Below the pieces are notes generated by a model that was given only the letters and a program-made list of their open reading frames with translations, searched no databases and was not told where the DNA came from. 64,000 bases of DNA, from contig NZ_LKBA01000019.1 of the NCBI RefSeq assembly GCF_001307765.1, positions 124,001 through 188,000 of the forward strand. Direction: 5' to 3'. Source of the DNA: Aliiroseovarius crassostreae. GTDB lineage: Bacteria > Pseudomonadota > Alphaproteobacteria > Rhodobacterales > Rhodobacteraceae. The first letter of the stretch is position 1. Each line of letters begins with the position of its first letter. Both the position numbers and the translations under genes were made by a program. Of the stretch, positions 4,591 to 31,965 are shown piece by piece.

Positions 4591-4696
4591 GATATCGCTA
4601 TAGCCGTGCAAGGTCACGGGTGCAATGGGGCGCGCGATCTGTCATGGTGGGTGTCATGATCGGATTTGCCCAAACGGCAGGGGAAACCGGATCCCG

Positions 4697-5728: not shown

Positions 5729-5944
5729 GTTTCAACCTGAAATAAATTTTGTAAGTCCCTGTCGCGGTTGCGTTGTGGCGGTTGGGTCGGTCTGAAACTC
5801 TAGAATGAATGCAGGGGGGGGTCAATTCAGTCCGGGCCCGGAATTGGGGCAAATTGGTCAACAAACTGTAAACACTCTGGCCACGTCCTCTCTTTCCCAG
5901 ATCGAACCGGAGTGTTAGGGCTGGGGCAAATAGGGAGAATTGAT

Positions 5945-6724: not shown

Positions 6725-6757
6725 CCCGAAAAGACTGCGCAACAGGAGAGAATTGTC

Positions 6758-7801: not shown

Positions 7802-7825
7802 TTCACGCTTCGCATGTGGCTGGGT

Positions 7826-7863
7826 CCGAGGCCTCCGGCGGGGATATTTTTAACAAGAAAAAG
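7826..7863. repeat. Dispersed intergenic repeat, copy A (inverted)
   Basis: The sequence GAGGCCTCCGGCGGGGATA followed by TTTTTAACAAGAAAAAG matches, on the opposite strand, the CTTG...CAAATATCCCGGGG core of the copies at 12505, 35457, 46422 and 58135. It lies between the converging ends of the aldo-keto reductase and the carnitine regulator, where a transcription terminator would be expected. Confidence 0.5.
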
Positions 7864-8838
7864 TCATCTGCGCTCTCGCAGGTGACTTACGCTTTGGCCA
7901 TGGGCCGATTTGAAGGCGCGTGCAAAACTGGCGGGTGATCCGAACCCGGTCCGCAACGCAATCTCATTTACCGGCAGCGCCGTGTCGGTTGCCAGCCTGC
8001 GCGCTTCATCCAGGCGTAGGGTCAGGAAGTATGCACCGGGAGAGGTGCCAAGGGCAGATTTGAAACGGGTTTCCAAACTGCGGGGGCTGAGCCCAAGTTG
8101 ACGTGCTAGCGCCCGTATCGGCAGAGGATCCTCCAGATGCTCCTCCATCAAACGGATCGCCTGCGCCACTTTCGGGGCCCGCGCGCTGAGACGGGCAGGG
8201 GAGGTGACGCTTTGCGGGCGGGTATCTGAGGAGGCGGGTTCGTAGATCAACGCCCCTGCAACCCGCATGGCCAGGGCATCCCCGTGCCGGATGCGGATCA
8301 GGTGAAGCATCAGGTCAAGGGCTGCCCCGGCCCCGCCAGTTGTCAGGCGATCTCCGTCCACCACAAACCTGTCTTTTGCGACATCAATTTCGGGGAACTG
8401 CACCGTGAATTTTTCCAGATCTTCCCAGTGAGTTGTGGCGCGATAGCTGTCAAGCAAACCGGCGCGCGCCAGAATCCATGGCCCGCCATCCACCCCACCC
8501 AATGCCATTCCTTTGCGGGCGAGCCCACGCAGGGTGCGGCTGAGATGCGGGGTGGCTTGCTGCTCAAGCTCAAACCCGGCGATCACAAAGAGCGCATCCA
8601 TCTCGATCTCTTGCGACAGCGGGGCACCGGGGACCGCGAGGCCGGATGTCAGTGTGGCGGCCTGTCCGTCGACCGTAAACCAATCCCATTGGAAAAGCTC
8701 TCGTCCGGCGCGCCTGTTGGCTGCGCGCAGGGGATCAACAACGGCGGCCAGGGATAAGGTGTTCGCGGCATTGAGAATGAGCAGGCCGATGCGAAGGGGC
8801 GCGGTCGCAGGCTGGAATATTTTTGCGCTTTTCATCAT
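7864..8838 (-). CDS. GlxA-family AraC-type regulator of carnitine genes (CdhR-like)
   Basis: A 324-residue transcription regulator with an N-terminal DJ-1/PfpI-like glutamine amidotransferase-fold domain (LRIGLLILNAANTLSLAAVVDPL onward in shorter blocks) and a C-terminal AraC double helix-turn-helix (LGLSPRSLETRFKSALG, then FGSPASFARAFKSAHG). This GlxA arrangement is that of CdhR, the activator of carnitine dehydrogenase genes in Pseudomonas. It is transcribed divergently from the carnitine operon with about 70 bp between starts, which strongly suggests it controls that operon. The start MMKSAKIFQPA is preferred over a longer form because the domain begins soon after it. The identity of the inducer is inferred. 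Confidence 0.82.
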   Translation of the reverse strand: MMKSAKIFQPATAPLRIGLLILNAANTLSLAAVVDPLRAANRRAGRELFQWDWFTVDGQAATLTSGLAVPGAPLSQEIEMDALFVIAGFELEQQATPHLSRTLRGLARKGMALGGVDGGPWILARAGLLDSYRATTHWEDLEKFTVQFPEIDVAKDRFVVDGDRLTTGGAGAALDLMLHLIRIRHGDALAMRVAGALIYEPASSDTRPQSVTSPARLSARAPKVAQAIRLMEEHLEDPLPIRALARQLGLSPRSLETRFKSALGTSPGAYFLTLRLDEARRLATDTALPVNEIALRTGFGSPASFARAFKSAHGQSVSHLRERR

Positions 8839-8910
8839 GTTTTCATCGTTAAGTGTAAACTCGCTCCGGTCAAGCATCGCAATATGAAGGAAATGAACAG
8901 GGAGGCCCAA

Positions 8911-9828
8911 ATGCCGCTTCAAATGAATCGCGAAGTTTTCATCACCGCTGCTGTGACCGGATCAGGTGGCACGCAGGACCGCAGCCCGCATGTTCCGCGC
9001 AGCCCTGCGCAGATTGCGGCTTCTGCAATTGATGCGGCAAAGGCCGGGGCGGCGATTGTGCATTGCCATGTGCGCGACCCGGACACGGGCGCCCCGTCGC
9101 GCGACCTCGCGCTTTACCGCGAAGTGACCGACCGCATTCGTGACGCCGAGGTGGATGTGGTTCTGAACCTGACCGCCGGGATGGGGGGCGACATCGTGTT
9201 CGGCAACCCCGAAAGCCCTTTTCCAGTCAATCCCGAGGCCACCGACATGATCGGCGCCACCGAACGTATGGCCCATGTTGCCGAATGCCTGCCCGAGATC
9301 TGCACGCTCGATTGTGGCACAATGAATTTTGCCGAGGCCGATTACGTGATGACCAACACGCCCGGCATGTTGGAAGCCATGGGGCGGATGATGACCGAAC
9401 TGGGGGTGAAACCTGAGATCGAAGCCTTTGATACCGGTCACCTTTGGCACGCGAAAACTCTTGTAGAGAAAGGGGTTCTGGACAGCCCGGCACTGGTGCA
9501 GCTGTGCATGGGGGTGCCGTGGGGTGCCCCCAATGACATGAACACCTTCCTCGCAATGGTCAACAATGTGCCTGCCGACTGGACCTGGTCGGCCTTCTCG
9601 CTGGGGCGCGATCAGATGGCCTATGCGGCGGCGGCCACGCTGGCCGGGGGCAATGTGCGCGTTGGTCTTGAAGATAACCTCTGGCTGGAAAAAGGTGTGC
9701 TGGCCACCAATGCCCAACTGGTCGATCGCGCCGCCACCATCATCACCAACATGGGGGCCCGCGTCATCGGCCCTGAAGAGGTGCGCAAAAAGCTGGGGCT
9801 TGTGAAACGTCCCCCGGTTGCCGCATGA
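8911..9828 (+). CDS. 3-dehydrocarnitine cleavage enzyme (BKACE/DUF849)
   Basis: A beta-keto acid cleavage enzyme of 305 residues with a TIM barrel and zinc bound by an HCHVRDP motif (near residue 46). In carnitine catabolism this family takes 3-dehydrocarnitine and acetyl-CoA to betainyl-CoA and acetoacetate. Other family landmarks are AAVTGSGGT at the N-terminus, NLTAGMGGD, GTMNFA, EAFDTGHL, and VRVGLEDNLWLEKG near the end. The start at 8911 has a perfect AGGGAGG ribosome site 6 bases upstream; an in-frame ATG 27 bases earlier is less likely. DUF849 enzymes vary in substrate; the carnitine assignment comes from the adjacent carnitine dehydrogenase and CdhR-like regulator. Confidence 0.88.
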   Translation: MPLQMNREVFITAAVTGSGGTQDRSPHVPRSPAQIAASAIDAAKAGAAIVHCHVRDPDTGAPSRDLALYREVTDRIRDAEVDVVLNLTAGMGGDIVFGNPESPFPVNPEATDMIGATERMAHVAECLPEICTLDCGTMNFAEADYVMTNTPGMLEAMGRMMTELGVKPEIEAFDTGHLWHAKTLVEKGVLDSPALVQLCMGVPWGAPNDMNTFLAMVNNVPADWTWSAFSLGRDQMAYAAAATLAGGNVRVGLEDNLWLEKGVLATNAQLVDRAATIITNMGARVIGPEEVRKKLGLVKRPPVAA

Positions 9829-9879
9829 AGAAGCTGAACCGCCGGGTGGTCCGGGGGGATAGGCTATGACGAGGATATA

Positions 9880-10404
9880 ATGGCGGGGACGGTTGGACGG
9901 CTTCTTTTTTCTGTGTTGGCGTTGGTTGGACTGTCGGCCTGTCTGGACAGTGGCGCGGGTGGGGTGGAATTTCACCGCAACACCAAAACCAAGATCAGTT
10001 CGACAACCCGGTTTGATGCAGAGCGTTTTGCCGGGAAATGGCAGTTCCGTGGAGAGTTCGTCTACCCTGACGAGGTGATGGAAAACGGTGTGGTCGAATT
10101 TCGCGTTCATGCGGGGGAGGTCAGCCAGATCGCGCTTTACAACGCGCGAGGCCGGGTAAGTGACATTTATGATGTGGACCAGCCCCAAGCGGGGCGGTTC
10201 ATGCTGGGCGAAAAGCCTTATCAGACTGAATATTGGGTGCTGTGGGTCGACGAAGGGTATCGCACCGCCGCAATCGGCACCCCGTCGGGCAGTTTTGGCT
10301 GGATCCTTGATCGTGCCCGGTCCGGAGGGGAGGATCGGGTCAAGGCTGCCCGAGAAGTTTTTGATTTTAACGGCTACAATCTGGCGCGGCTCAAAATGAA
10401 CTGA
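9880..10404 (+). CDS. Lipocalin-like lipoprotein in the carnitine operon
   Basis: A 174-residue predicted lipoprotein: a hydrophobic signal followed by the lipobox LSAC (cysteine near residue 21). The mature part has the lipocalin pattern, with AGKW in the first strand (the G-x-W motif), then YWVLWVDEGYRTAAIGTPSG and FGWILDRAR, resembling the bacterial Blc/apolipoprotein D type. It would sit on the inner face of the outer membrane and bind a small hydrophobic or membrane-derived ligand. It is inserted between the cleavage enzyme and carnitine dehydrogenase in the same direction (gaps 51 and 21 bp), so it may help handle acylcarnitines or lipids. That role is inference. Confidence 0.75.
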   Translation: MAGTVGRLLFSVLALVGLSACLDSGAGGVEFHRNTKTKISSTTRFDAERFAGKWQFRGEFVYPDEVMENGVVEFRVHAGEVSQIALYNARGRVSDIYDVDQPQAGRFMLGEKPYQTEYWVLWVDEGYRTAAIGTPSGSFGWILDRARSGGEDRVKAAREVFDFNGYNLARLKMN

Positions 10405-10425
10405 TCCGGCCAGCAGGGAGAGAAC

Positions 10426-11871
10426 ATGACCAAAACAGCAGCGATCATTGGCGGGGGCGTGATAGGTGGCGGATGGGCCGCACGGTTCCTTTTGATGGGA
10501 TGGGATGTGCGGGTGTTTGACCCCGATCCCGAGGCCGAGCGCAAGATTGGTGAGGTGTTGGACAATGCCCGCCGCGCGCTGCCGGGCCTGTCTGATGTGA
10601 TGATGCCCGATGAAGGGACGCTCAGCTTTCACGAGCATTTGGCAGATGCGGTGGATGGCGCGATTTGGGTTCAGGAAAGTGTGCCAGAGCGGCTTGAGTT
10701 GAAACAGAAGGTTTATGGCGGGTTGATGGATGCGATCGGTGAGGACACCATCGTAGGGTCGTCGACATCGGGTTTCAAGCCGTCGGAACTGCAAGAGGGG
10801 CTTGCGCGCGCGGGGCAGGTTCTGGTCGCCCATCCGTTCAATCCGGTTTACCTTTTGCCGGTGGTGGAACTGGTGCCGACGGATGCGAACCCTCCTGAAG
10901 TCCGGGAACGGGCAATGGGTATCCTGACCGAAATCGGTATGAAACCGGTTGAAATCAAAAAAGAAATCGATGCACATGTGGCGGATCGCCTGCTGGAAGC
11001 GGTCTGGCGTGAGGCGCTTTGGCTGGTGTCCGATGGCATTGCGACCACCGAAGAGATCGACGATATCATGCGGTTCGGCTTCGGTCTGCGTTGGGCGCAG
11101 ATGGGGTTGTTTGAAACCTACCGTGTTGCCGGTGGCGAAGCGGGTATGAAGCATTTCATGGCGCAGTTTGGCCCGGCGCTGAAATGGCCCTGGACCAAGC
11201 TGATGGATGTGCCGGAATTCACCGATGAGCTGGTGGACCTGATTGCGGGTCAGTCAGACGCGCAATCCGGCCATATGTCGATCCGCGAATTGGAACGCAG
11301 CCGTGACGACAACCTGGTGGCGATGATGCGGGCCCTCAAAGGGCGCGATTGGGGGGCAGGGCGCCTCCTGAACGACGTCGACAAACGTCTGGGACATCCC
11401 GAGGTCGACATATCCCGACCGATCACCACACTGGCCACCGCGATCCCCGTGGACTGGCTGGACTATAACGGCCACATGACCGAAAGCCGCTATCTGGATG
11501 CCTTTGCGCGTGCCACCGACCGGTTCATGGAAATTATCGGCTGTGATGCGGATTATATCGCCACCGGTGGCAGCTATTTCACCGCCGAAACCCATATCCG
11601 ACATCTTGATGAGGCCCATCTGGGGCAACGCATCCGTGTGGAAACCCGGTGCCTCTATGGCAAAGGCAAAAAGATGCACCTGTTCCACAGCATGTATGAA
11701 GGTGAGCGCCTGCTTGCGACCGGGGAACATGTGCTCCTGCATGTCAGCCTTGACACCCGCCGTCCTGCCCCCCCAGCAGACCATATCGAAGCGCGGATGG
11801 TGGAAATCGCGATGGCCCATGCCAAGCTGCCCGCACCGGACGGGGTGGGGCGGTCCATCAAGGTAGGCTAG
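10426..11871 (+). CDS. lcdH: L-carnitine dehydrogenase fused to betainyl-CoA thioesterase
   Basis: A two-domain protein of 481 residues. Residues 1-320 form a 3-hydroxyacyl-CoA dehydrogenase-like enzyme with the NAD fold (AIIGGGVIGGGWAARFL), SSTSGFKPSEL and HPFNPVYLLPVVEL; in this family it oxidises L-carnitine to 3-dehydrocarnitine. Residues 335-481 are a hotdog thioesterase (DWLDYNGHMTESRYLDAFA, VETRCLYGKGKKMHLFH) expected to release glycine betaine from betainyl-CoA. The fusion joins the steps before and after the DUF849 enzyme encoded two genes upstream. In Pseudomonas these activities are on separate proteins. A GGGAGAG ribosome site precedes the ATG. Confidence 0.92.
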   Translation: MTKTAAIIGGGVIGGGWAARFLLMGWDVRVFDPDPEAERKIGEVLDNARRALPGLSDVMMPDEGTLSFHEHLADAVDGAIWVQESVPERLELKQKVYGGLMDAIGEDTIVGSSTSGFKPSELQEGLARAGQVLVAHPFNPVYLLPVVELVPTDANPPEVRERAMGILTEIGMKPVEIKKEIDAHVADRLLEAVWREALWLVSDGIATTEEIDDIMRFGFGLRWAQMGLFETYRVAGGEAGMKHFMAQFGPALKWPWTKLMDVPEFTDELVDLIAGQSDAQSGHMSIRELERSRDDNLVAMMRALKGRDWGAGRLLNDVDKRLGHPEVDISRPITTLATAIPVDWLDYNGHMTESRYLDAFARATDRFMEIIGCDADYIATGGSYFTAETHIRHLDEAHLGQRIRVETRCLYGKGKKMHLFHSMYEGERLLATGEHVLLHVSLDTRRPAPPADHIEARMVEIAMAHAKLPAPDGVGRSIKVG

Positions 11872-11894
11872 CTTTTTAAAGGCACCCATGGCAG

Positions 11895-12504
11895 ATGGGG
11901 ATCATGCAAGCCTGGATCCCCATCACCATTGCCGCAGCTTTCAGTCAGAATTTGCGCTTCATGCTGCAAAAGCGGCTGAAAGACACAAAGCTCTCGACCA
12001 AGGGGGCCACCTTTGCCCGCTTCGTCTATTCGGCGCCTTTGGTGGCGGGGCTGGAAGCGGTTTTCCAATAGGGCCGCGGGTCTGGGTCTGCTCTCTGGTC
12101 TGCTTTTTGCCGTCTCGGCAACCGGTTATCGGGGGGCGTCGTTTTCGCTCGGGATCGAGAATGTGATTGTGCGGGCCGGTTTCACACTCGCCTGCGTGAC
12201 CGCATATCAATCTGTCATCATGGCCATCTGGATGCGCTTTTCCGACCCGGGAGAGATCTCTTGCGTGCTGCACGCCTGGCGCGTTGGGGCGCTGGTGGGG
12301 CTCAGCTCAATGATCGGCAGTTTCTGCTGGTTCACTGCCTTTACCCTGCAAAATGCCGCGCTTGTGAAATCGCTGGGGCAGGTGGAACTCCTGTTCAGCT
12401 ATGCCACCACAATTTTTGTCTTCCGTGAAACCGTCACCAGACGAGAGATCACCGGCACGGCGCTGATCCTCCTGTCCGTGCTGGTGTTGGTGCTGTTTCT
12501 CTGA
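11895..12504 (+). pseudogene. Broken EamA/DMT-family transporter
   Basis: Two pieces of a drug/metabolite transporter remain. The N-terminal piece (11895-12071, 58 codons, MGIMQAWIPITIAAAFSQN onward) contains the first helix and the KGATFARFVYSAPL second-helix region, then stops at TAG. The C-terminal piece continues in another frame from about 12073 (GLGLLSGLLFAVSATGYRG) through several helices to LILLSVLVLVLFL at 12504. About 95 residues of a normal 290-300-residue protein are missing at the junction near 12055-12075, so an internal deletion with a frameshift is the simplest explanation. It follows the carnitine operon in the same direction. Confidence 0.8.
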
Positions 12505-12557
12505 TTTTTCTTGCCACAAATACCTCGGGGGAGGCGCAGCCGGGGGCAGCGCCCCCT
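12505..12557. repeat. Dispersed intergenic repeat, copy B
   Basis: TTTTTCTTGCCACAAATACC is followed by TCGGGGGAGGCGCAGCCGGG and a GGGGGCAGCGCCCCC hairpin. It matches the copies at 35457, 46422 and 58135 with variation. It lies between the converging transporter relic and the NUDIX gene, and the hairpin could act as a terminator. Confidence 0.55.
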
Positions 12558-12633
12558 TGCCGAGCGCCGCGAGGCTATGAATTAATAGTCCCGAGCGTAG
12601 CGAGATCAACAAACGCATTGCGCCCACTGCACC

Positions 12634-13335
12634 TCATCCCTGCGCGGAGAATGGCCCCACTCCACCCAGACGCTCAAACAGGCTTTCTTCATCGGTGTTG
12701 TTGAAAAAAGGCACCTGTTCCGGCGCTCCGAGATTGGGAAGGTTCCCGGCAATCTCAGCCAGAACGACCTCCGTGATGAAAGGAAGGTCAAAGCGGCGCA
12801 CCTTGTCCATCGGGATCCATTGCAGATGGCTCAGCTCATCTGAAGCGCGGGAAAAATCATCCGGATCCGTTTTCAGTTTCGACGCGTCTGCCACGAAAAA
12901 CCTTGCATCAAATCGGCGCGGTCGTCCCTTGGGGGTGATCGCCCGGAACGCAAAGGCCAACCCATCGGCAGAGGGAACATACCCGGCCTCGGAAAAGCTC
13001 TTCCAGTCTGCGGGCACATCGCCGGGCCATGTCCCCGGTGCGCCAAGGATCTGACCGGTCTCTTCCCAAAGCTCACGAATGGCCGCCACCAGCAGGGCCT
13101 GGGCCAGGTTAGGGTCCGCATCCTCTCCCAGCCGGGTCAGACAGGGTTCCGCCCCCCCTTGAGCAAGAGGCACCGCGCCGTCAGCGGTATCCACGGCGCC
13201 GCCGGGAAAAACAAACTTGTTTGGCATGAAGGCCGCTTTTGCCCCGCGTTGCCCCATCAGAACCTGGGGGGCCGTTTCCGCGTCGCGGATCAGGATCACC
13301 GTTGCGGCGTTGCGAATGATCTTGGATTTGTCCAT
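12634..13335 (-). CDS. NUDIX hydrolase
   Basis: A 233-residue NUDIX-fold phosphohydrolase. The N-terminal strand RNAATVILIRD and FVFPGGAVD lead into a NUDIX box whose glycine part is separated by an insertion of about 30 residues from AAIRELWEETGQ (about 84-95), which supplies the metal-binding REXXEE core. Downstream FDARFFVADA and LSHLQWIPMDKV complete the fold. This long form with a split box resembles the NUDT19-like branch active on CoA derivatives, but substrate is uncertain. It converges with the transporter relic and is transcribed away from the EF-hand cluster. Confidence 0.86.
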   Translation of the reverse strand: MDKSKIIRNAATVILIRDAETAPQVLMGQRGAKAAFMPNKFVFPGGAVDTADGAVPLAQGGAEPCLTRLGEDADPNLAQALLVAAIRELWEETGQILGAPGTWPGDVPADWKSFSEAGYVPSADGLAFAFRAITPKGRPRRFDARFFVADASKLKTDPDDFSRASDELSHLQWIPMDKVRRFDLPFITEVVLAEIAGNLPNLGAPEQVPFFNNTDEESLFERLGGVGPFSAQG

Positions 13336-20924: not shown

Positions 20925-20999
20925 TGGCAGCCCGTAGGGGAATCGAACCCCTCTTTCCAGGTTGAAAACCTGGCGTCCTAACCGATAGACGAACGGGCC
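20925..20999 (-). tRNA. tRNA-Glu (UUC), copy 1
   Basis: A 75-nt cloverleaf read on the minus strand. It has acceptor stem GGCCCGT/ACGGGCT, anticodon stem CCAGG/CCTGG with loop TTTTCAA (anticodon TTC), T-arm GGGG-T-TCGATTC-CCC and an encoded CCA. It is identical over all 75 nt to the copy at 31891-31965. Its 5' flank also shares TTTTAGGGGAAGCG with that copy. Confidence 0.95.
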
Positions 21000-23762: not shown

Positions 23763-23779
23763 GTGGCAGCCCGTAGGGG
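23763..23779. repeat. Left attachment site, tRNA-Glu 3' fragment
   Basis: GTGGCAGCCCGTAGGGG matches 31890-31906 exactly and equals the last 16 nt of the tRNA-Glu gene plus one base. The match ends at 23780, where G replaces the A of the tRNA. No other part of a tRNA is present here, so it is a displaced attachment site, not a gene. Confidence 0.85.
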
Positions 23780-23815
23780 GCTGCCGCTTCTGTTTGGAAT
23801 CAGGCGGTTAGCGAA

Positions 23816-23873
23816 AAGTGGGACACTTAGTATTCCCATATGAACACAAGGGTTTTCGGCTTTATTGTCCCAC
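23816..23873. promoter_or_regulatory. Candidate integrase arm sites, left end
   Basis: Two sites share a GTGGGACA core: AAGTGGGACACTT at 23816-23828 on the plus strand, and TGTCCCAC at 23866-23873, which is the same core inverted. The matching pair at the right end has the mirror arrangement (31807-31819 and 31839-31846). Position just inside both attachment sites suggests arm-type binding sites for the integrase or its excisionase. Confidence 0.55.
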
Positions 23874-23908
23874 CAAACTGCCCCTTGCAGCGCGGGGGAC
23901 AGGTCACG

Positions 23909-24289
23909 TCAGACCAATCTGAGTGGCGCGGGGGAAAGGTTGTTTTTCATGTCCAGGAGAAGGCGGACGCCCTGGCGGATGGACCACGGCCGATAGCCCT
24001 GCACCTGGCGGACGTCGCGGCGGAGTTCGACATAGACGGACCCGGCGGACACGCCGTCCCGTGCCAGGCGGATCGCGCCGCGCTTTGCGTGGGCCTCGAG
24101 GCCCGTAAGCATCGTGTCCGGTTCCACGCCATAGTCCTGGTGCATCTGATCCAGAGACAGCCACGCTCGGACGTCCTCCGGCGCTTCCAGGTCGCAATCG
24201 TCCTCCAACAGGATTTCCGTCCCGTGGCCGCACACATAGAACGCGGCCAAGGCCAGCAATTCTTCGGCCGATGTAAACCGTTTCTCCAT
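23909..24289 (-). CDS. Hypothetical protein of the integrated element
   Basis: A 126-residue soluble protein with no family I recognise. It is rich in Leu, Arg and Asp and likely mostly helical: SAEELLALAAFYVCGHG, EDVRAWLSLDQMHQDYG, HAKRGAIRLARDGV and QGVRLLLDMKNN. It contains GSVYVELRRDVRQVQGY, which could be a beta hairpin. A strong GGAGGG ribosome site lies 6-7 bases before the ATG. It is the leftmost gene of the element and points toward the left attachment site. Confidence 0.65.
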   Translation of the reverse strand: MEKRFTSAEELLALAAFYVCGHGTEILLEDDCDLEAPEDVRAWLSLDQMHQDYGVEPDTMLTGLEAHAKRGAIRLARDGVSAGSVYVELRRDVRQVQGYRPWSIRQGVRLLLDMKNNLSPAPLRLV

Positions 24290-24973
24290 TTCGATCCCTC
24301 CATTCGCTTTGCCTGGTCAGGCGCTTGCCGCACGCGCAAGGATATCGTCGGGCGTGGTTAATAGTCGGTTAAGGGTTGAAGTGATTTAGGCAATCAGCCC
24401 CGCGCCCCAAACGGTCCCGAGGCCGCCCGGGGACCCCGCTTCACGGCCCAATCCGGGCCGCGCCAAGACAACGCTGGACCGCCTGCGCGCTTCACCGCCG
24501 AACCTTCCCCGCGCCCCCGCCCATCTCCCTAGATCAGGGACCCCGGGGAGGGAAGGAAGGTCTTTGCGGCCAGGCCGCAAGCGGCCTGACGGTGAATTCA
24601 GAAGGGCAAAGCTGCTTCTTGGGGATAGCGGGGAGTGTAACAGGGAAGGTTCCGGGGACCTGAAAGGCCATATTATTGAATGAAATCAGTATAATTTTTC
24701 TATAGGGAGGATAGGGAGGGGTATATAAAGCATACGAGAAAAACGCAGAAACAAAGTATTTTGCACAGGAGGGCGCAAACCCCTCCCCGGCGTCCCTGCT
24801 ATCCCCGAGCGGGTTTCGGCCTAGTCCGGCCTGGCGGTTTTGGGTCCTTCCGTGGGGTCGCAACGTGGGTATATTCGCGTCCCGTTGTTCAATAAGAAGC
24901 TGGCCTTTAGGGAGGTGGGCTTTTCCATTGGGGTTGTTGATGTTGCAAAAGCCACTCGGACATATTCGGAACC
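24290..24973. other. Long non-coding stretch inside the element
   Basis: No convincing gene is seen in 680 bp. A reading frame on the minus strand (24534-24977) has odd composition and no motif. The stretch contains a perfect 8-bp-arm palindrome, CAGGCCGCAAGCGGCCTG (24571-24588). It also has an AT-rich patch at about 24669-24735 with two GGGAGG-type purine runs followed by TATATAAAG, in otherwise GC-rich surroundings. Such a region could hold a replication origin, a packaging site or promoters for the two leftward genes, but nothing shows which. Confidence 0.4.
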
Positions 24974-26746
24974 TCATTGATCCGGTACAAGTCCATTAAG
25001 ATCACCGCCAGTAACACCGAATGCGCCAGAGACACTCCCTATTAGTTGCGCGCCCTGAATCACCAGGGGCGCGGACCTATCCACACCGATCCGAGTATAA
25101 CATTCTTCTACATCCGAGCTTGAAAGGTGCGCATCAGATGAGCGCAAATCATAAACCCCGAAAAGGGGGCCCATTCTGTCATGCGCATACGCCTCATCAG
25201 TGTACTTTGCCAGCAGCCTTTGTAAGAGTTTCAAGGTTCCATGATCAGACTTGCCCTCACCTAGTGCTTGGATAAGGCTCTTTTTGTTGATTCTCTCAAT
25301 CGAGAATTTCACAACGTCTTTAGCCAAGGACCGAAGTCCGTCTTCACTTACACCACGAAACCTGGTGATTTTCTGCCTTAGTGCGGCTGTCTCATGGTGA
25401 TCACGCAAGAGAGAGACTTCAAATTTCGCTTGGATTACACCATGCAACCACACTAGCGCATCGGGCAGCAACACCTCTGGCGCAGAGGTGCGGGCTGGAC
25501 GGCACTCCATCTGAGCTTGCATCAACTCAGCAGAAACCCCGCCGTCCGGGCGACAATTAAATCCGGCCCATATACGACGTTCCCAAAGAGGGCGGCGAGC
25601 AATATCGTAGGCATATGCGTTAACCAGACCAATCTTGTTCATACCGAAATGGACTAGCCAATCAGGTGACGGAGAAACACCACCCGTATTCTCAGTGTAC
25701 CATTCAAGGCAAGCCCCTCGCTGCGAAAGCAACTCATTGACCACACCTGGTTTGAACCAGAGGTATTTTCCAATTTCCTCACGGTTCAGTGTCTCAAGGT
25801 CGACTCTTGCCCCTCCATCAAGCTGCACCATCAATGCTTCGGACGGCTCTGAATAACCGATCCTTTCAGAAGCAGCCGCTGGCTCGATCCACTCACCTCT
25901 CCATAGTTCACCTGAAACCGAAAACCTATCACTTTCGTTTCCGCGCACGCCGCTGGTCGAGGCCGACTCTGTATTTTCATCGTCGTAGCCAGAAAAATCC
26001 GGTACGTCTTCTTCTGGATCAACATCAGTGCGACGGGCAGTAAACATTGCCCAAGTGGTGCCAGGGAAATCCCCCGACCCATCAATTTCGTGGCACCTGA
26101 CTTCGCACCGATCATTTGGCTCAGAAACTAGCGCGAAATCCTCAGGCCAATCAAAGCCTGGATTGTAATCAAGGACGGCCTTCCGTTCACGATAATAGTA
26201 CAACCGCAGGGCGGCCTTTCGGGCTGCGAGGTAATCCTTCAAATATTCGGCGCGCACCTCGACAAAGATGACAGTCCCTTCGTCATTACGCGTCTGTCGA
26301 ATGACCTCTTCATAGCCCTCCCCAGGCCGCACCCAAGAATTTCCTTCCTTGAGCAGGCTATATGCAAGTATGAAATCTTGGTGCATCAAGACCTGCCGGG
26401 GATGCAGCGAATTGTGATATTGGCTTAAGACAAGCCTGAACCCAAGGCTTCCTTCAAATCCAGGCTGGAAGTCGTCAGCTTGGTTGTATGTCCCGTCGTC
26501 TTGTAAGTATGGGGTAGTCTGATCCAACGACCAGTGGTGCCAATCCAAGTTCTCGGCAAACTCTCGCTTGTCTTCGTAGATTACAGCCGATCCAACGGCT
26601 AGAGTTTCTTCGACATGCCCTATTTCGGGATACTTGCCCCTCTTAATTGGATGAAGCGTTCCGTAAACTGGCACCCACATGGCCCGCGCAAATTTCCGTC
26701 GTCTAAGGTCCTCGAGCTCAAACCACTCTTGGCTCAATTCATCCAT
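24974..26746 (-). CDS. Large unknown protein with HEPN-like motif, possible defence gene
   Basis: A 590-residue soluble protein without a family I can name. Near the C-terminus it contains YDLRSSDAHLSS, an R-x4-H pair (about Arg535 and His540) set in a helical context like that of HEPN ribonuclease domains in abortive-infection and toxin proteins. The preceding region is helical (VVKFSIERINKKSLIQALG, LKLLQRLLAKYTDEAY). The N-terminal 450 residues have repeated aromatic stretches (LDWHHWSLDQTTPYL) and no recognised fold. By eye its GC content is near half, clearly below its neighbours, which suggests a separate origin. An antiphage effector role is inference from the motif and its place in a satellite. 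Confidence 0.6.
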   Translation of the reverse strand: MDELSQEWFELEDLRRRKFARAMWVPVYGTLHPIKRGKYPEIGHVEETLAVGSAVIYEDKREFAENLDWHHWSLDQTTPYLQDDGTYNQADDFQPGFEGSLGFRLVLSQYHNSLHPRQVLMHQDFILAYSLLKEGNSWVRPGEGYEEVIRQTRNDEGTVIFVEVRAEYLKDYLAARKAALRLYYYRERKAVLDYNPGFDWPEDFALVSEPNDRCEVRCHEIDGSGDFPGTTWAMFTARRTDVDPEEDVPDFSGYDDENTESASTSGVRGNESDRFSVSGELWRGEWIEPAAASERIGYSEPSEALMVQLDGGARVDLETLNREEIGKYLWFKPGVVNELLSQRGACLEWYTENTGGVSPSPDWLVHFGMNKIGLVNAYAYDIARRPLWERRIWAGFNCRPDGGVSAELMQAQMECRPARTSAPEVLLPDALVWLHGVIQAKFEVSLLRDHHETAALRQKITRFRGVSEDGLRSLAKDVVKFSIERINKKSLIQALGEGKSDHGTLKLLQRLLAKYTDEAYAHDRMGPLFGVYDLRSSDAHLSSSDVEECYTRIGVDRSAPLVIQGAQLIGSVSGAFGVTGGDLNGLVPDQ

Positions 26747-27118
26747 TGGTGTCTTTCCCTTCGCTCACGCTCAAAATGGGATCATTTTCCGATACTGCCG
26801 ATCTCCACCGCTGCTAAACCCAATCAACCCTAAAATGTCTGGAACGTCGTTTGGATTTAGTAATTCTAGGTTTGATCAGACCAGCGGGACATTCAGTTCT
26901 CCATTCAGCCGGAGCTTTAACAAAACCTAGTTGCGACCCCCGGCAACGCCGCAATATCGGCTACGAAACGGCAACGGTTCAACCCTGAATCGCAGATGCT
27001 CACCAAGAATTCTTCCTTGCGTGGGGAGCGAATCTTGACCTCAGAAAGGGCTTGACGCCCCGAATCCAGACCGTCGTTTTGATATCTATTCACTCTGCAA
27101 AGGAAACGGATAGACCTC
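26747..27118. other. Intergenic region between divergent element genes
   Basis: This 372-bp region separates the leftward HEPN-motif gene from the rightward structural/integration genes and must hold promoters for both. A TTGACG at 27050 is a possible -35 box for the rightward genes, but no good -10 box follows at normal spacing. No gene, tRNA or clear repeat is visible. Confidence 0.4.
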
Positions 27119-28063
27119 ATGACCACGCAAGCTGACAAACCAATGTATCGCCTATCCGTAGCCCTCGAGGCAGCGGGTGTGAAACCGGGCAAGTTCCACC
27201 GCCAATTTTATGATGGTGTCTTGGGCCAGGCCCTCAAGACCGATGGGGAGTTTGCGGCGCAGATAACCGATCCCATGCGGGGCGCGGGGGCCGGTCGCGG
27301 CGGTGGGCGGTTTGTCACCCTCGAGGGTGCGGTGTGCCTGGCGGTGTTTTTCCGGCTCCTGACAGGGGGCGTTCCCTCTGACCGAGCCTTGCGGATCGCC
27401 CGCGCTTTCATTTTAATGGACGAATTAATGGACGAAATCGGCAACGGCCTTCGTGCCTTCAACGCCACCATGCCACGTCCTGCCGGTCAAGTTTTTGACG
27501 GGTCGCAGGACACGTTCCTGGTCACGGTCGCGGGTGTGCTGCCCGCTGATGCACAGGACGCTATCGCGTTCGTTCCTGGGTGCGACCTGACAGCGTTTCA
27601 GATCATGGAGTGGCTGGACTTTCACGAAAGTGGATGCGCGCCTCTCTGCCTGGTGAACCTCTCCGAGCTGATCCAGCAAATGCGGGACGGCTTGGAGGCC
27701 GATCCGGTTGCGGCCGTCCAGCACCCGGGCGCGGGTTACGCCGCGACTGGTGACGCATCATCCGCGATAACCGATCCCGTTCCTGCGTTTCTGGCCGAAT
27801 TCACAATCCGCGATCCTTCTGCGCGCATGTCCAGCCTCGAGTTTCAGCGCGTCTTTCACGCTTGGCTTTCCGATTGGCAGGCGGCGGCGCGCCCACACCA
27901 CCAAGGGGATGCAAACAGCAACGCGGTAAACTTGGCCAATGCACTGGCGGCATGTGGTGGCCGCAAAGTCAAATCCAACGGCAAAATGGCATTCGCTGGC
28001 ATTCGGTGGAGCAAAACACCAGCCGCCCAAGCCTTCCTCACAGGTTTGTTGGAATTGAATTGA
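27119..28063 (+). CDS. Element protein with D5-primase-like C-terminal domain
   Basis: A 314-residue protein. The last 95 residues (FLAEFTIRDPSARMSSLEF, FHAWLSDWQ, LAACGGRKVKSNGKMAFAGI) follow the pattern of the winged-helix domain at the C-terminus of phage and plasmid D5-type primase-helicases, which binds DNA. No primase or helicase motif (no Walker A) is present upstream. The N-terminus (MYRLSVALEAAGVKPGKFHRQ, GGRFVTLEGAVCLAVFFRL) may be another DNA-binding region. It could be a replication initiator, a regulator or a packaging factor. It begins the rightward gene set of the element. Confidence 0.6.
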   Translation: MTTQADKPMYRLSVALEAAGVKPGKFHRQFYDGVLGQALKTDGEFAAQITDPMRGAGAGRGGGRFVTLEGAVCLAVFFRLLTGGVPSDRALRIARAFILMDELMDEIGNGLRAFNATMPRPAGQVFDGSQDTFLVTVAGVLPADAQDAIAFVPGCDLTAFQIMEWLDFHESGCAPLCLVNLSELIQQMRDGLEADPVAAVQHPGAGYAATGDASSAITDPVPAFLAEFTIRDPSARMSSLEFQRVFHAWLSDWQAAARPHHQGDANSNAVNLANALAACGGRKVKSNGKMAFAGIRWSKTPAAQAFLTGLLELN

Positions 28064-28117
28064 CGGCTGCGCCGTCTCCCTTCCCCGCCGATCCCGAACC
28101 CCAAAGGAACCCTTTCC

Positions 28118-28498
28118 ATGAACGCCAAAACCGCCACCGAAAACCCGATCGCTACCGCCCAGCGCGGCCGCGCGCATGTCGTGGCCGCCTGCCTTGCCGT
28201 GCTGACGCGTGAAATCCACGGCGCGGGCCTCGAGAAACACGCCGCCCTGGACCTGTTGCGGGACGCGCCGGACAAGATTGACGCTGCTCTGACGCGCGGC
28301 CCAGGGGCGCTGGTGGTTTACCGCCTTGACCGTCGCGGGGCGCGGGGCGTGGTCAGTGACAGCGAATCCCGGCTGGGGCATTTTACGGCCGCCGCCGAAC
28401 AAGAGGGCGCGCCGTTGTTCGGGTTCTGTCCCGGCGCGATTGCCGAGCTGGCCGCCCATATCGATGCGGGCGCGGCGTCCCTGAAAAAGGACGCCTGA
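28118..28498 (+). CDS. Small hypothetical protein before the capsid gene
   Basis: A 126-residue alanine-rich protein, MNAKTATENPIATAQRGRAH at the start, with likely helices (HVVAACLAVLTREIHG, KHAALDLLRDAPDKIDAAL) and a strand ALVVYRLDRRG. No family is recognised. An AAGGAA ribosome site lies upstream, and the stop codon is three bases before the protease-capsid ATG, so the two are co-translated. A role in capsid assembly or in steering helper-phage particles is possible but unproven. Confidence 0.6.
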   Translation: MNAKTATENPIATAQRGRAHVVAACLAVLTREIHGAGLEKHAALDLLRDAPDKIDAALTRGPGALVVYRLDRRGARGVVSDSESRLGHFTAAAEQEGAPLFGFCPGAIAELAAHIDAGAASLKKDA

Positions 28499-28501
28499 TC
28501 C

Positions 28502-30394
28502 ATGAAACATGAGCGGTTTGCAGATTTGAACAATCCCGCCTTTGGCCCCCAGGTTGCGGCCGAGGTGAAGGTGGAGGACGGGGACCGGACGGTCCTTCTG
28601 TCCTTCTCGAGCGAAATTCCGGTCCTTCGGGATACCCCCATGGGACCGGCCTTTGAGGTTCTGGGGCACGATCCAGGCGAGGTTGACCTGTCACGGCTCA
28701 ACAGCGGATCGGCCCCGGTCCTCAAGGATCACCGGCGCGACGTGGACTCGATGGTCGGGACGGTTGTTTTCGCCCGGATCGAGGGTCGCCGGGGTCGCGC
28801 AGTTGTGCGGCTTGCGGACACGAAAGAAGGCAACTCAATGCTAACCCGTGTGAAGGCGGGTGAAGTGCAGTCGGTATCGGTGGGTTACGCCGTCCATGAG
28901 TTGAAACCAGCGGGCGAACAAATCGGCTATCCCGTCTTGCGCGCCACAAAATGGGAAGCGGTCGAGGTGTCACTCGTCGCGGTCCCGGCGGACCCCACGG
29001 TCGGGGTCGGTCGGTCGCTGTCGGGCGGTTCTTCCGCGTCCATCCCTCATTTTCTGAAAGGTTCAAACATGACGACTCCCACCCCCCACACGACTCAGCA
29101 CCAGCCCGCCCCGGCGACCAGTTCCGTCAACGCCGAACGCCGCCGCGCGTCCGAAATCTCCGCCCTGGGCCGCAGCTTCAACATGCCCGCCGAGGATGTG
29201 GAAAGCGCGATTGCGGACGGCCTGTCCGTGGACGCATTCCAGCGTTCGATCCTGGACGGCATGTCCTCGAGCAACGGCCCGCAACCCGTCACGCGCGGCC
29301 GCATGGGCCTGCCCGCAATCGCGGCGGCCGAGCGGTCCTATTCGCTGTCCCGTGTCGCCCAGGCACAAATCACCGGCGATTGGACCCAGGCCGGTTTCGA
29401 GCGGGAAGTTTCCCAGGAGCTGCAAGGCCAGCTTGGCCGTAGCGCCTCGGGGACCTACGTTCCCACGGCCGCCCTGGCCGGACGCGCCCTGGTCACGACC
29501 GCCACCGCACCGTCGCTGATCGGCACCCAGCAGATGCACGACGCCTTTGTCGAGGTCCTGAAACCCCAGGTGCGGGTGATGGAGCTGGGCGCAACGGTTC
29601 TGCCGGGCCTGGTGGAAAACGTGTCGATCCCGCGCCAGACGGCCGGGTGTTCCGCCGAATGGATCGCGGAAAACAGCGAGGCGACGGAATCGGCCCCGGC
29701 CTTCGACGCGGTGACGCTGACCATGCACCAGCTTTCGGCCCACACGCGGATTTCGCGCCGTCAGCTCAAGCAAAGCCTGCCCGCCGTGGACCAGATTCTC
29801 ACCAATGATTTGCGCGCCCAGATCGCGGTTGCACTGGACAAGGCTGCGATTGCCGGAACCGGCGTTGGCCCCCAGCCCACGGGCATTCTCAACCTGGCCG
29901 GGATCGGTGACGTAGAAATGGGACCGGACGGCGATTTCGTGACCTGGGCCAAACTCATGGAGTTGGTCAGCATTGTGGAGTCGGCCAACGTCGATCCCAT
30001 GTCCCTGGGCTTCCTGTCCAACCTCAAGGTCAAAGGGCACCTCATGTCCACGCCGCGCATTTCTGGGACCGATACCATGATGCTGGACCCGGACGTCGCC
30101 GCCACGGCCGAGGACCTGCGCCTGGCCGGTTACAAGGCCCGGTTCTCCGGCAACGTGCCGTCCGACCTCACCAAGGGAACCGGGGCGGACCTGTCGGCCG
30201 TGATCTTCGGGGCCTGGGCTGACCTTCTGATCGGCCAATGGGGCGGTATCGACCTGATCGTGGACGATGTGACCGAAGCCGCGAAAGGTAACGTCCGACT
30301 GGTGGCGCATTCCGAATGGGACATTGCCACCCGCCATGCGGAATCCTTCGCGGATCCAGGACGCCCTGACCGCGTAAGAGCTAAGACGCCATAA
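28502..30394 (+). CDS. Prohead protease/major capsid protein fusion (HK97 type)
   Basis: A 630-residue fusion of two phage head proteins. Residues 1-175 are the prohead protease: LKDHRRDVDSMVGTV with the catalytic His77, VQSVSVGY with the catalytic Ser126, and WEAVEVSLVAVPADPTV. After a linker of about 90 residues that may act as scaffold, the HK97-fold capsid protein occupies the C-terminal half (TAGCSAEWIAENSEATES, LSAHTRISRRQLKQS, IAVALDKAAIAGTG, PTGILNLAGI). An internal ATG at 29069 (codon 190) with GAAAGG before it could make capsid protein without the protease. Fusions of this kind are known in phages and prophages. No portal or terminase gene accompanies it. Confidence 0.92.
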   Translation: MKHERFADLNNPAFGPQVAAEVKVEDGDRTVLLSFSSEIPVLRDTPMGPAFEVLGHDPGEVDLSRLNSGSAPVLKDHRRDVDSMVGTVVFARIEGRRGRAVVRLADTKEGNSMLTRVKAGEVQSVSVGYAVHELKPAGEQIGYPVLRATKWEAVEVSLVAVPADPTVGVGRSLSGGSSASIPHFLKGSNMTTPTPHTTQHQPAPATSSVNAERRRASEISALGRSFNMPAEDVESAIADGLSVDAFQRSILDGMSSSNGPQPVTRGRMGLPAIAAAERSYSLSRVAQAQITGDWTQAGFEREVSQELQGQLGRSASGTYVPTAALAGRALVTTATAPSLIGTQQMHDAFVEVLKPQVRVMELGATVLPGLVENVSIPRQTAGCSAEWIAENSEATESAPAFDAVTLTMHQLSAHTRISRRQLKQSLPAVDQILTNDLRAQIAVALDKAAIAGTGVGPQPTGILNLAGIGDVEMGPDGDFVTWAKLMELVSIVESANVDPMSLGFLSNLKVKGHLMSTPRISGTDTMMLDPDVAATAEDLRLAGYKARFSGNVPSDLTKGTGADLSAVIFGAWADLLIGQWGGIDLIVDDVTEAAKGNVRLVAHSEWDIATRHAESFADPGRPDRVRAKTP

Positions 30395-30419
30395 GACTGC
30401 ACCACGCCGCAGCGGCGCA

Positions 30420-30452
30420 GCCCGCCCCTTCAACGCCTGATCCGGGGCGGGC
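30420..30452 (+). terminator. Hairpin after the capsid gene
   Basis: Perfect 9-bp GC arms, GCCCGCCCC and GGGGCGGGC, are separated by 15 bases and lie 26 bp past the capsid stop codon. No T-run follows, so it may be a weak or factor-dependent terminator or an mRNA stabiliser. Confidence 0.5.
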
Positions 30453-30507
30453 TATCCCTCCAACTCTTTGCGTCATAGGTCCCATGCTTCAAACCGCCGC
30501 AAAACAC

Positions 30508-30549
30508 GACAGCCCGCGCCCTGCCGTTGCCGACACGGCGCGGGCTGTC
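30508..30549. repeat. Inverted repeat spanning the AlpA-like start
   Basis: Perfect 13-bp arms, GACAGCCCGCGCC (30508-30520) and GGCGCGGGCTGTC (30537-30549), enclose the proposed TTG start of the AlpA-like gene at 30527. In RNA the start codon would sit in the loop. In DNA it could be an operator. Confidence 0.5.
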
Positions 30550-30736
30550 ACGTGTCGAGGCAGCCGGTTACATCGGAATAGGCGCTTCAAAATTCGACGC
30601 GATGGTGGCTGATGGGCGTATGCCCAAGCCCAAAAAGATTGACGGACGGCGCGTGTGGGACGTTCGGTCCCTGGACCGTTCATTTGATGCTTTACCAGGT
30701 GGTGACGACTCGGACTACAATCCTTGGGATGAGTAG
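30527..30736 (+). CDS. AlpA/excisionase-like helix-turn-helix protein
   Basis: A 69-residue protein with the AlpA/Xis pattern: GLSRVEAAGYIGIGASKFDAM (written as RVEAAGYIGIG and SKFDAM), VADGRMPKPKKIDGRRVWDV and a short acidic tail. The winged helix-turn-helix of this type binds DNA and directs excision or activates the integrase gene. Its stop codon is immediately followed by the integrase ATG. The start is uncertain because only TTG (30527) is available in frame near the domain, and it lies within a strong inverted repeat. Confidence 0.75.
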   Translation: MPTRRGLSRVEAAGYIGIGASKFDAMVADGRMPKPKKIDGRRVWDVRSLDRSFDALPGGDDSDYNPWDE

Positions 30737-31801
30737 ATGAGCGAGGAGTCCATGAAATTTAAATTGAAATATGTCGTCGAGGACACGGACCGTCACGGGA
30801 ACGTGCGGCTCTACTATCGACGCGACGGCCGGAAAGTGCGCTTGCGCGGCCCGACCGGATCACCGGAATTCCTGACCGACTACCGCCGCGCTGCGGCAGG
30901 TCCAAAGGAATCCAAGTCAACAACCAAACGGGCAAGTCGCGTGAAGCCTAACTCGTTTCATTGGCTCTGCACCCAATACTACAAATCATCCATGTGGGCC
31001 GGGCTGGACCCAAAGACTCAAAAGACCAGACGCGCGATCCTCGAGCGGTTCGCGCTTCACAATGGCAATGGCGACAAACCGTTTCGCATGATGTTGGCGC
31101 GCCACATACGCAAACGGCGCGACGAGATGATGGCGACGCCAGAGGCGGCCAACAGCATGGTAAAAGTGCTGCGCCAGCTCTTTCGTTTCGCCGTCACTTA
31201 TGACTTGGCCGACACAAATCCGGCGAAGGACGTGGAGCTTCTGAAATCGAACCCAGATGGCTACCACTCGTGGACGCTCGCCGAGATAGAGAAGTTCGAG
31301 GAAACGCATCCAGAAGGCAGCACAGCGCGCCTGGCGCTGGCTCTGGCGCTCTACACAGGGCAACGCCGGTCTGACCTAGTGTTGTTCGGGAAACAGCACG
31401 TCCAAAAGGGCTGGCTCGTGTTCACGCAACAGAAGGGAAAAGGGCGGAACCCGGTCCGCTTGCAAATCCCGATTGTGCCAGAGCTAGAACGGATCATCGA
31501 GGCAAGCGAGACCGGCGACCTAGCTTTTCTCGTCAACGCCTATGGGCGGCCGTTCACGAATGCCGGTTTTGGTAATCGGTTTCGCAAGTGGTGCGACGAT
31601 GCAGGTTTGAAGCATTGTTCGGTCCACGGCCTCCGAAAGGCGGCCGCTGCGCGTCTGGCCGAGCTGGGATGCACCGAGTTCGAAATCATGGCGATCACCG
31701 GCCACCAGACCTCGAAAGAGGTCACGCGATACACGAAAGCGGCCAGCCAAAAAGTGCGCGCCCAGGCGGCCTCTCAGAAGATGCGCGCCGGACAGAGTTA
31801 G
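30737..31801 (+). CDS. int: Tyrosine recombinase/phage integrase
   Basis: A 354-residue site-specific recombinase. The catalytic residues are all in place: Arg210 (TGQRRSDL), the Lys in the QQKGKG beta-hairpin, His297 and Arg300 (VHGLRKAA), His323 (TGHQT) and Tyr332 (TRYTKA). The N-terminus (VRLYYRRDGRKVRLRG) is an arm-type DNA-binding domain and residues 72-165 the core-binding domain. The gene ends 89 bp from the reconstituted tRNA-Glu, the normal position next to the attachment site. It follows the AlpA-like gene without a gap. It catalyses integration into and excision from the tRNA 3' end. Confidence 0.95.
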   Translation: MSEESMKFKLKYVVEDTDRHGNVRLYYRRDGRKVRLRGPTGSPEFLTDYRRAAAGPKESKSTTKRASRVKPNSFHWLCTQYYKSSMWAGLDPKTQKTRRAILERFALHNGNGDKPFRMMLARHIRKRRDEMMATPEAANSMVKVLRQLFRFAVTYDLADTNPAKDVELLKSNPDGYHSWTLAEIEKFEETHPEGSTARLALALALYTGQRRSDLVLFGKQHVQKGWLVFTQQKGKGRNPVRLQIPIVPELERIIEASETGDLAFLVNAYGRPFTNAGFGNRFRKWCDDAGLKHCSVHGLRKAAAARLAELGCTEFEIMAITGHQTSKEVTRYTKAASQKVRAQAASQKMRAGQS

Positions 31802-31806
31802 AACAA

Positions 31807-31846
31807 AAGTGTCCCACTTTTTGCCCCCGTTCGACACGGTGGGACA
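31807..31846. promoter_or_regulatory. Candidate integrase arm sites, right end
   Basis: AAGTGTCCCACTT (31807-31819) is the exact reverse complement of the left-end site AAGTGGGACACTT, and GTGGGACA recurs in the other orientation at 31839-31846. Together with the left pair these make four core sites placed symmetrically within 110 bp of the two attachment sites. Confidence 0.55.
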
Positions 31847-31889
31847 AAACCGACACTTAACGCTCTGATGTTTCAAGAAGAAAATTTAA

Positions 31890-31906
31890 GTGGCAGCCCG
31901 TAGGGG
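31890..31906. repeat. Right attachment site within tRNA-Glu
   Basis: GTGGCAGCCCGTAGGGG, identical to 23763-23779. Sixteen of its bases are the 3' end of the tRNA-Glu gene, so the gene is restored by the integrated element. Confidence 0.85.
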
Positions 31907-31965
31907 AATCGAACCCCTCTTTCCAGGTTGAAAACCTGGCGTCCTAACCGATAGACGAACGGGCC
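31891..31965 (-). tRNA. tRNA-Glu (UUC), copy 2, integration target
   Basis: A 75-nt tRNA identical to that at 20925-20999, with anticodon TTC and encoded CCA. The integrated element abuts its 3' end. The 5' flank keeps GTGAGG and TTTTAGGGGAAGCG in common with copy 1, so this is the end that belongs to the chromosome. Confidence 0.95.

Follow-up and report, generated by a model that had tools for sequence, protein, structure and literature searches.

A candidate cos-packaged satellite of Cronusvirus-like phages with its own protease-capsid protein in Aliiroseovarius crassostreae

How might a chromosomal island that makes a phage shell protein, and no packaging, portal, tail or lysis protein that can be recognized, spread between bacteria? 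The question is raised by a locus of Aliiroseovarius crassostreae, which we analyzed within a stretch of 64,000 nucleotides (contig NZ_LKBA01000019.1, positions 124,001 to 188,000; hereafter the window, whose numbering is used throughout). The 8.1-kb island lies at window positions 23763-31906, is bounded by identical 17-bp direct repeats, and is sited at a tRNA-Glu gene, which, as read from these features, is its site of integration. An initial annotation had reported an integrase, an AlpA protein and a protease-capsid fusion in this interval, and Pfam and PHROG matches bear this out. It had also held that the island brings only a shell. This part is wrong because the island also carries the cos-type packaging signal of its presumed helper, which had been overlooked (Table 1). 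Our analysis suggests that the island is probably a cos-packaged satellite of Cronusvirus-like phages that encodes its own protease-capsid protein.

The gene set recurs as a module in other Rhodobacterales. A scan of genome contigs gave nine loci, L031-L039. The eight that we refer to as type A (L031-L038) all contain a capsid gene, with 82-94% identity in the best segment, together with an AlpA-like gene beside an integrase gene. A gene for a 314-aa protein is present in five of the eight, and the gene for a 126-aa protein that adjoins the capsid gene is present in seven (not L036); both are partial in some loci, the latter also in pieces. The ninth locus, L039, consists of a capsid fragment without AlpA, integrase or module genes. 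Genomes G230 and G160 of another genome set were taken to be the same as L033 and L035 and were counted once. Type B is formed by L046 (G046) and L050 (G195), which have a capsid with 57% identity, related upstream genes (64% over 87-88 aa for the 126-aa module protein), and a different integrase beside tRNA-Cys. Immediately 3' of the capsid gene, type B encodes a 129-aa homologue of a major tail protein (L046 10168-10557, L050 10772-11161; phrog_1407, 3.4e-24 for L046), and no further tail gene was recognized in type B.

The initial annotation had found no gene for a terminase, portal, tail or lysis protein, and this held up. None of these families was matched by the seven island proteins in Pfam, PHROGs or NCBIfam, and the large and small terminase subunits (TerL and TerS) and portal of RcCronus and of L051, a Cronusvirus-like prophage in genome G355, gave no tblastn match in the window at E 1e-5. 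As positive controls, the same Pfam library detected TerL and portal both in L051 and in the same-genus island L053, where it also picked up connector, protease and capsid. Portal, TerL and TerS were likewise absent by tblastn from all 12 satellite loci (the window, L031-L036, L046 and L050 at E 1e-5; L037-L039 at E 1e-3), a count in which L032, L034 and L039 are represented by partial elements only. For comparison, we took the best 80 (L054-L133) of 587 confirmed viral-contig relatives of the capsid; 48 of these extend 3 kb or more upstream from the capsid gene, and tblastn found a portal in 47 of the 48 and TerL in 37. L068 has no portal by tblastn yet has tail-like genes 3' of its capsid gene, as read from its gene list, and is therefore probably an ordinary phage. 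In L085 and L099, the sequence upstream of the capsid is just 2.3-2.7 kb long. The profile searches that the initial annotation had suggested for the unassigned proteins returned no portal or terminase. A hidden copy of either found no support in Pfam, PHROGs, NCBIfam, PDB-profile or profile-profile searches, with profiles built on shallow alignments (6 and 7 sequences), and profile comparison ruled out the module 126-aa protein as TerS.

The packaging signal emerged from the comparison of relatives. In the island alignment, the non-coding stretch 24653-24942 is conserved although the adjoining cargo differs, and the cos core in this region is also found shortly before terS in prophage L051 and viral contig L058. 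In L140 it precedes an open reading frame (ORF) whose start resembles L051 TerS. The genome record of RcCronus ends within the motif, its start continues the motif, and its last 13 bases are repeated at the start. RcCronus, RcRhea and RcSaxon have 13-base 5' overhangs (PMC4882933; PMC8601537), and the 5' cohesive end of R4C, located upstream of terS, is described as 14 bp long (PMC6836515). When the window cos block was compared with 50,697 phage records, nine matched; five of them, from three Cronusvirus phages, had E 0.02 and lay at genome ends, and the other four had E about 4. In an alignment of eight satellites and two phages, 45 of 118 columns are invariant, and the conservation reaches as far as the bases that precede the start of terS. 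When up to 3 mismatches are allowed, the cos pattern occurs once in the window and in none of 100 window shuffles. The motif is present in 8/12 satellite loci despite differing cargo, where L032 and L034 begin too late to show the region. Across 394 genomes of the family the same pattern matched seven (three satellites, L051, L155, L156 and L157), and a reversed control pattern matched one (G408); the pattern misses type B sites, whose spacer is 11 bases long. Close to the L156 site is what may be a remnant of the 314-aa gene (41% over 29 aa), and the motif was not found upstream of terS in CRP-831. Based on these comparisons, we strongly infer that the island would be packaged from cos by a Cronusvirus-like terminase.

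Table 1. Features of the island and its integration site, in window coordinates
Feature	Position	Strand	Basis
Left attachment repeat, 17 bp	23763..23779		Identical to 31890-31906; same 17-mer flanks relative L037
126-aa protein (left end)	23909..24289	-	Gene call; partial relative in L037; no family above cut-off
cos-type packaging site	24842..24945	+	Comparison with RcCronus mapped ends, prophage L051 and satellites
Predicted 13-base cohesive end	24868-24880	+	By comparison with RcCronus
590-aa cargo protein	24974..26746	-	No family above cut-off (Pfam, PHROGs, NCBIfam); plasmid relatives
314-aa module protein	27119..28063	+	Relatives in L032, L033, L037; partial in L031, L035
126-aa module protein adjoining capsid gene	28118..28498	+	Conserved beside capsid gene among relatives
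Prohead protease-major capsid fusion, 630 aa	28502..30394	+	Pfam, PHROG, NCBIfam; dN/dS; tree
AlpA-like regulator/excisionase, 69 aa	30527..30736	+	phrog_25900 2.2e-12
Tyrosine integrase, 354 aa	30737..31801	+	PF00589 3.5e-16
Right attachment repeat, 17 bp	31890..31906		Overlaps tRNA-Glu 3' end
tRNA-Glu(ttc), intact, integration target	31891..31965	-	tRNA search; Rfam

The capsid gene itself appears to be maintained. Its product matches Pfam Peptidase_S78 (1.9e-7) and Phage_capsid (3.3e-35), and PHROG 617 over residues 23-617 (2.9e-125); a match to the NCBIfam protease/major capsid protein fusion NF045541 is below the cut-off. Across 21 pairs from seven intact genes, dN/dS is 0.083-0.256, which indicates purifying selection, and the medians by part are 0.173 for the protease, 0.229 for the linker and 0.079 for the capsid part, the most constrained of the three. 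The nine intact satellite capsids form one clade with a support of 100 in a tree of 96 capsids (0/500 shuffles as low), which was made by a quick method whose program gave long-branch warnings. Identity to the satellite capsid stays under 60% in each of the 122 phage records that matched, the highest among the 40 listed being 37%, and in an alignment scan of IMG/VR the satellite capsids are at most 40% identical to the best 80 of the 587 viral-contig relatives. Compared with RcCronus, R4C and L051, the satellite linker that joins protease and capsid core has 20-40 fewer residues; Carpena et al. consider a shortening of this kind in relation to Ccm and head size (PMC5052747). We considered linker length as a marker of head size and found it not to be diagnostic, with a value obtained for only 42 of 87 non-satellite capsids.

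Within the family the element is sparsely distributed. The capsid was matched in 6/394 genomes (E 1e-60), comprising five satellites, the window included, and the prophage in G355, and it is present in one of the 21 genomes of the genus. In 19 of the 20 other genomes of the genus, the tRNA-Glu/recJ junction is present and the ~1 kb beyond the tRNA is free of element sequence; in the twentieth the junction is cut by a contig end. The left flank of the window was unmatched at these junctions, and a rejoined empty site was therefore not seen. Wider sampling at E 1e-70 gave capsid matches in 3/385 genomes of the class and 3/147 relatives of G160, among which no further satellite was recognized. 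The 314-aa protein was matched in 3/390 genomes of the order, one match being a fragment in L158 beside an AbiU-like gene. In IMG/VR, no satellite was recovered by a single-protein scan or by a profile of the 126-aa protein. As a side observation, the contig of L036 is labelled as a Methylocystaceae metagenome-assembled genome, and its satellite capsid is 83% like the roseobacter copies; it is possibly a mis-binned contig or a wide host jump.

Five loci show both ends of the element, and their lengths, measured from repeat start to repeat start, are 7738 (L036), 7973 (L037), 8127 (window), 8225 (L050) and 8586 bp (L046). The shortest, L036, is without the cos motif and the two upstream genes. 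The cargo varies, with an AIPR/AbiU-like gene in L037, the 590-aa protein in the window, and a HATPase/TmtA-like gene, below the Pfam cut-off, in L033, L036 and, as a fragment, L035. Type I restriction genes are near L038 and may be inside or outside the element. The cargo of some relatives thus appears defence-like. A TmtA/HATPase-like gene of the family shared with L033, L035 and L036 is also found at 3-716 alongside prophage L051, which hints at exchange between helper and satellite.

Taking the capsid gene and the helper packaging signal together, the island would probably borrow the packaging motor and tail of its helper. We propose that upon helper infection the AlpA-like protein would activate excision, as described for Gram-negative phage-inducible chromosomal islands (PICIs; PMC6092414), and that the excised element would replicate as a concatemer. 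Helper TerS and TerL would then recognize the borrowed cos and cut unit-length DNA of 8.1 kb. The DNA may enter heads made mainly of the capsid protein of the element, assembled on a helper portal and smaller than the ~60-nm, 36-kb heads of the helper. Helper connectors and tails would finish the particle, and the production of small heads would also divert the helper.

Several observations weigh against this proposal. Satellite and Cronusvirus capsids are only ~36% identical and do not branch together in the tree, so the fit to a Cronusvirus portal is only presumed. The capsid genes of L037, L038 and L039 are broken, and L031 and L036 are without the cos motif, with the upstream module partial or lost. 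Other phages have linkers that are equally short or shorter, such that the linker length of the satellites is not unusual, and the viral comparison is limited in scope to the best relatives given above. Particle formation, excision and transfer are predictions from sequence. In addition, no second cos-like site (up to 2 mismatches) was found in the genome that holds the window, nor, in a search run without a positive control, was a TerL of the L051 type; the helper is therefore probably an incoming phage. Portal matches outside the window do occur in this genome (G000:C24:164855 and C20:21034) and are perhaps those of a gene transfer agent and another prophage.

The alternative that survives best retains the satellite and cos logic and differs in the composition of the shell. 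Here, the satellite capsid would co-assemble with the helper capsid, shift it to a small head and poison the growth of the helper, as Ccm, the capsid homologue of SaPIbov5, does with phage phi12. SaPIbov5, one of the Staphylococcus aureus pathogenicity islands (SaPIs), is described as having a helper-type cos and a capsid homologue that is 19-23% identical to that of its helper, with Ccm in mixed capsids. The satellite capsid is likewise a distant homologue, and its linker is shortened relative to the three Cronusvirus-like proteins compared above. On the other side, the protease, linker and capsid parts are all constrained, as an independent shell needs, and SaPIbov5 has no identified protease in its published description. 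The capsids of the presumed helpers are also fused to a protease, so a retained protease does not exclude co-assembly. On balance, we regard this arrangement as rather unlikely, with a real share of the probability.

We assign a distinctly lower probability to the packaging of multimers. Roughly four units, 4 x 8.1 = 32.5 kb or 90% of a 36-kb genome, could be packaged from cos into full-size heads, where the capsid gene would merely interfere with the helper or matter little. The narrow range of element sizes fits four copies per head as well, so size alone does not decide the matter. Phage-inducible chromosomal minimalist islands (PICMIs) are described as packaging concatemers in full-size heads (PMC10803314), and EcCICFT073 as encoding a capsid homologue yet being packaged in full-size heads. 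Multimer packaging would leave unexplained the strong constraint on the whole protease-capsid gene in both types. Packaging from cos is known to restrict genome size; transfer of SaPIbov5 is reported to drop when its genome is 10% larger or 18% smaller (PMC6893505). A model of tailed phages gives 8.14 kb for a triangulation number (T) of about 7/3 and 11.78 kb (8.1-17.1) for T = 3, and in the same source the P4 head is larger than its genome predicts (PMC7762592).

Much less probable is a capsid used outside packaging, whether as a decoy against viruses or as an encapsulin-like compartment in a defence island. A lone capsid gene beside cargo that looks defence-like in some relatives, with particles predicted from sequence, would suit such a role; packaging is favored instead by the retained cos and attachment sites, by conservation of the protease part and by the small spread of element sizes. 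Lastly, the decayed remnant of a larger prophage that the initial annotation had raised against its own proposal has in its favor a single virion gene and broken copies (the capsids noted above, the L031 integrase and upstream gene, and the L033 126-aa gene), and is hardly credible given the shared gene order in several genera, the purifying selection, the satellite-only clade, the intact and similarly spaced ends, the 19 of 20 same-genus junctions without the element, and the absence of a larger version from every relative locus examined.

How new is such a strategy? The initial annotation had called it unusual, which stands insofar as it is uncommon; it is also precedented and not categorically new because SaPIbov5, PmCI172 and EcCICFT073 are described as having a capsid homologue without a full set of head genes. 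SaPIbov5 and other cos-type SaPIs with Ccm are small chromosomal islands with a helper-type cos and an HK97-fold capsid homologue, and, compared by description, neither a portal nor a large terminase is reported for them in the accounts consulted. They differ in hosts and helper, and in using an Stl-type repressor as described, whereas the island has AlpA, is ~8 kb, and has its capsid fused to a prohead protease. Among Gram-negative PICIs, EcCICFT073 and PmCI172 share int, alpA and a capsid homologue with the island; cos sites were shown to be functional for EcCICFT073, and PmCI172 forms small heads of 38-39 nm (PMC6092414). EcCICFT073 is described as needing pri-rep for efficient transfer, whereas here there is only the 314-aa protein, and the helper type differs. 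The island has the integrase, AlpA, specific attachment site and intactness of Gram-negative PICIs, as well as the helper-type cos site and capsid-protein homologue of the cos-type SaPI mechanism.

Other systems are further removed. Capsid-forming PICIs also have their own capsid and protease and are described with portal, connectors, both terminase subunits and HNH (PMC10690885), none of which was found here; because portal and terminase were not found, the island is not one of them. The Streptomyces phage satellites Mulch and Flayer encode a capsid and, by their description, differ in carrying terminase, portal and scaffold and in having terminal repeats. PICMIs are small helper-dependent satellites with an AlpA-type regulator and an integrase; their description gives no capsid-remodelling genes, a primase and a fis-linked site, in contrast to the capsid and tRNA-Glu site here. 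P4-like satellites are likewise small and helper-dependent, and P4 is described as redirecting the head through Sid and encoding no capsid protein. Charybdis elements, described without an HK97 capsid (PMC12324425), are unrelated. Marine tycheposons and VEIMEs, considered by name only, may overlap with the family. Open-access titles and abstracts contained no description of this Rhodobacterales family or of a Cronusvirus satellite, in a search that mostly did not reach the subscription literature.

If the proposal is correct, it would define a family of satellites among bacteria of a major marine group, a family whose likely helper type can be named from a packaging signal and whose minimal set would consist of an integrase, a regulator, cos, a capsid and two small module genes. 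The family would also carry defence-like genes between genera. In its fullest form, which we put forward tentatively and would not expect to hold in every part, this is an alphaproteobacterial satellite lineage whose sole essential virion gene is a self-maturing capsid, forming very small heads (T about 7/3 to T = 3) with a foreign portal and a foreign terminase engaged through the borrowed cos. The 8.1-kb unit corresponds to T of about 7/3 or to the lower limit of T = 3 and is thus a candidate for the head sizes described as puzzlingly missing (PMC7762592).

Some details of the remaining genes should be given. Six of the seven genes came from a codon-based caller, which chose a later start for the 590-aa gene than the one listed, and the 69-aa AlpA-like ORF was added from the ORF list. 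The order is 126 aa and 590 aa on the minus strand, followed by 314 aa, 126 aa, capsid, AlpA and integrase on the plus strand. Only the protease-capsid, AlpA-like and integrase proteins were confidently identified by the family searches; the AlpA-like protein, in addition to its PHROG match, scored below the cut-off for TIGR01764 (0.0023) and had no Pfam match. Pfam, PHROGs and NCBIfam gave no primase family for any of the seven proteins, and the 314-aa protein itself had no PHROG match. Its relative in L037 weakly matches PHROG 6088, a primase C-terminal end (E 0.0039), and the 314-aa protein is perhaps a replication or regulatory DNA-binding protein. Neither the 314-aa nor the 126-aa module protein matched the phage collection at E 1, and the latter had no match in plasmids at 0.01. 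Relatives of the 590-aa protein occur in 13 plasmid records, of which 11 reach a coverage of 80% or more (33-37% identity in the eight rows listed), from Agrobacterium, Shinella, Cupriavidus, Acinetobacter and other hosts, and are hypothetical in the listed annotations.

An Rfam scan of the window gave tRNA only, and a promoter scan found one promoter where 2.6 are expected in shuffles. Inverted repeats (I11, I18 and I24) pair across the non-coding stretch 24535-24835, which adjoins the cos block and is a possible replication origin or structured RNA. A second tRNA-Glu(ttc) gene lies ~10.9 kb leftward of the attachment site, at 20925-20999, and has 59 bases identical to the copy there.

Further loci were noted along the way. 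The same-genus island L053 (G008:C36, ~4009-13021) is compact, has TerL, capsid, connector, protease and portal by Pfam and an integrase 34% like that of the window, and looks like a capsid-forming PICI. L157 (G400:C20, 10990-11075) is a lone cos-like block between genes of host type, and no phage gene was called close to it. L155 (G378:C56, 3348-9734), on a 10.1-kb contig, has the cos motif with 1 mismatch beside Gabija GajA/GajB genes and a D5-type primase fragment, and is perhaps another type of satellite that uses the same helper terminase. Finally, the RcRhea record (L144, KR935216) has ~80 bases, at 1-81, that precede the cohesive end, and is exactly 80 bases longer than that of RcCronus; this leader contains what we take to be a sequencing adapter.

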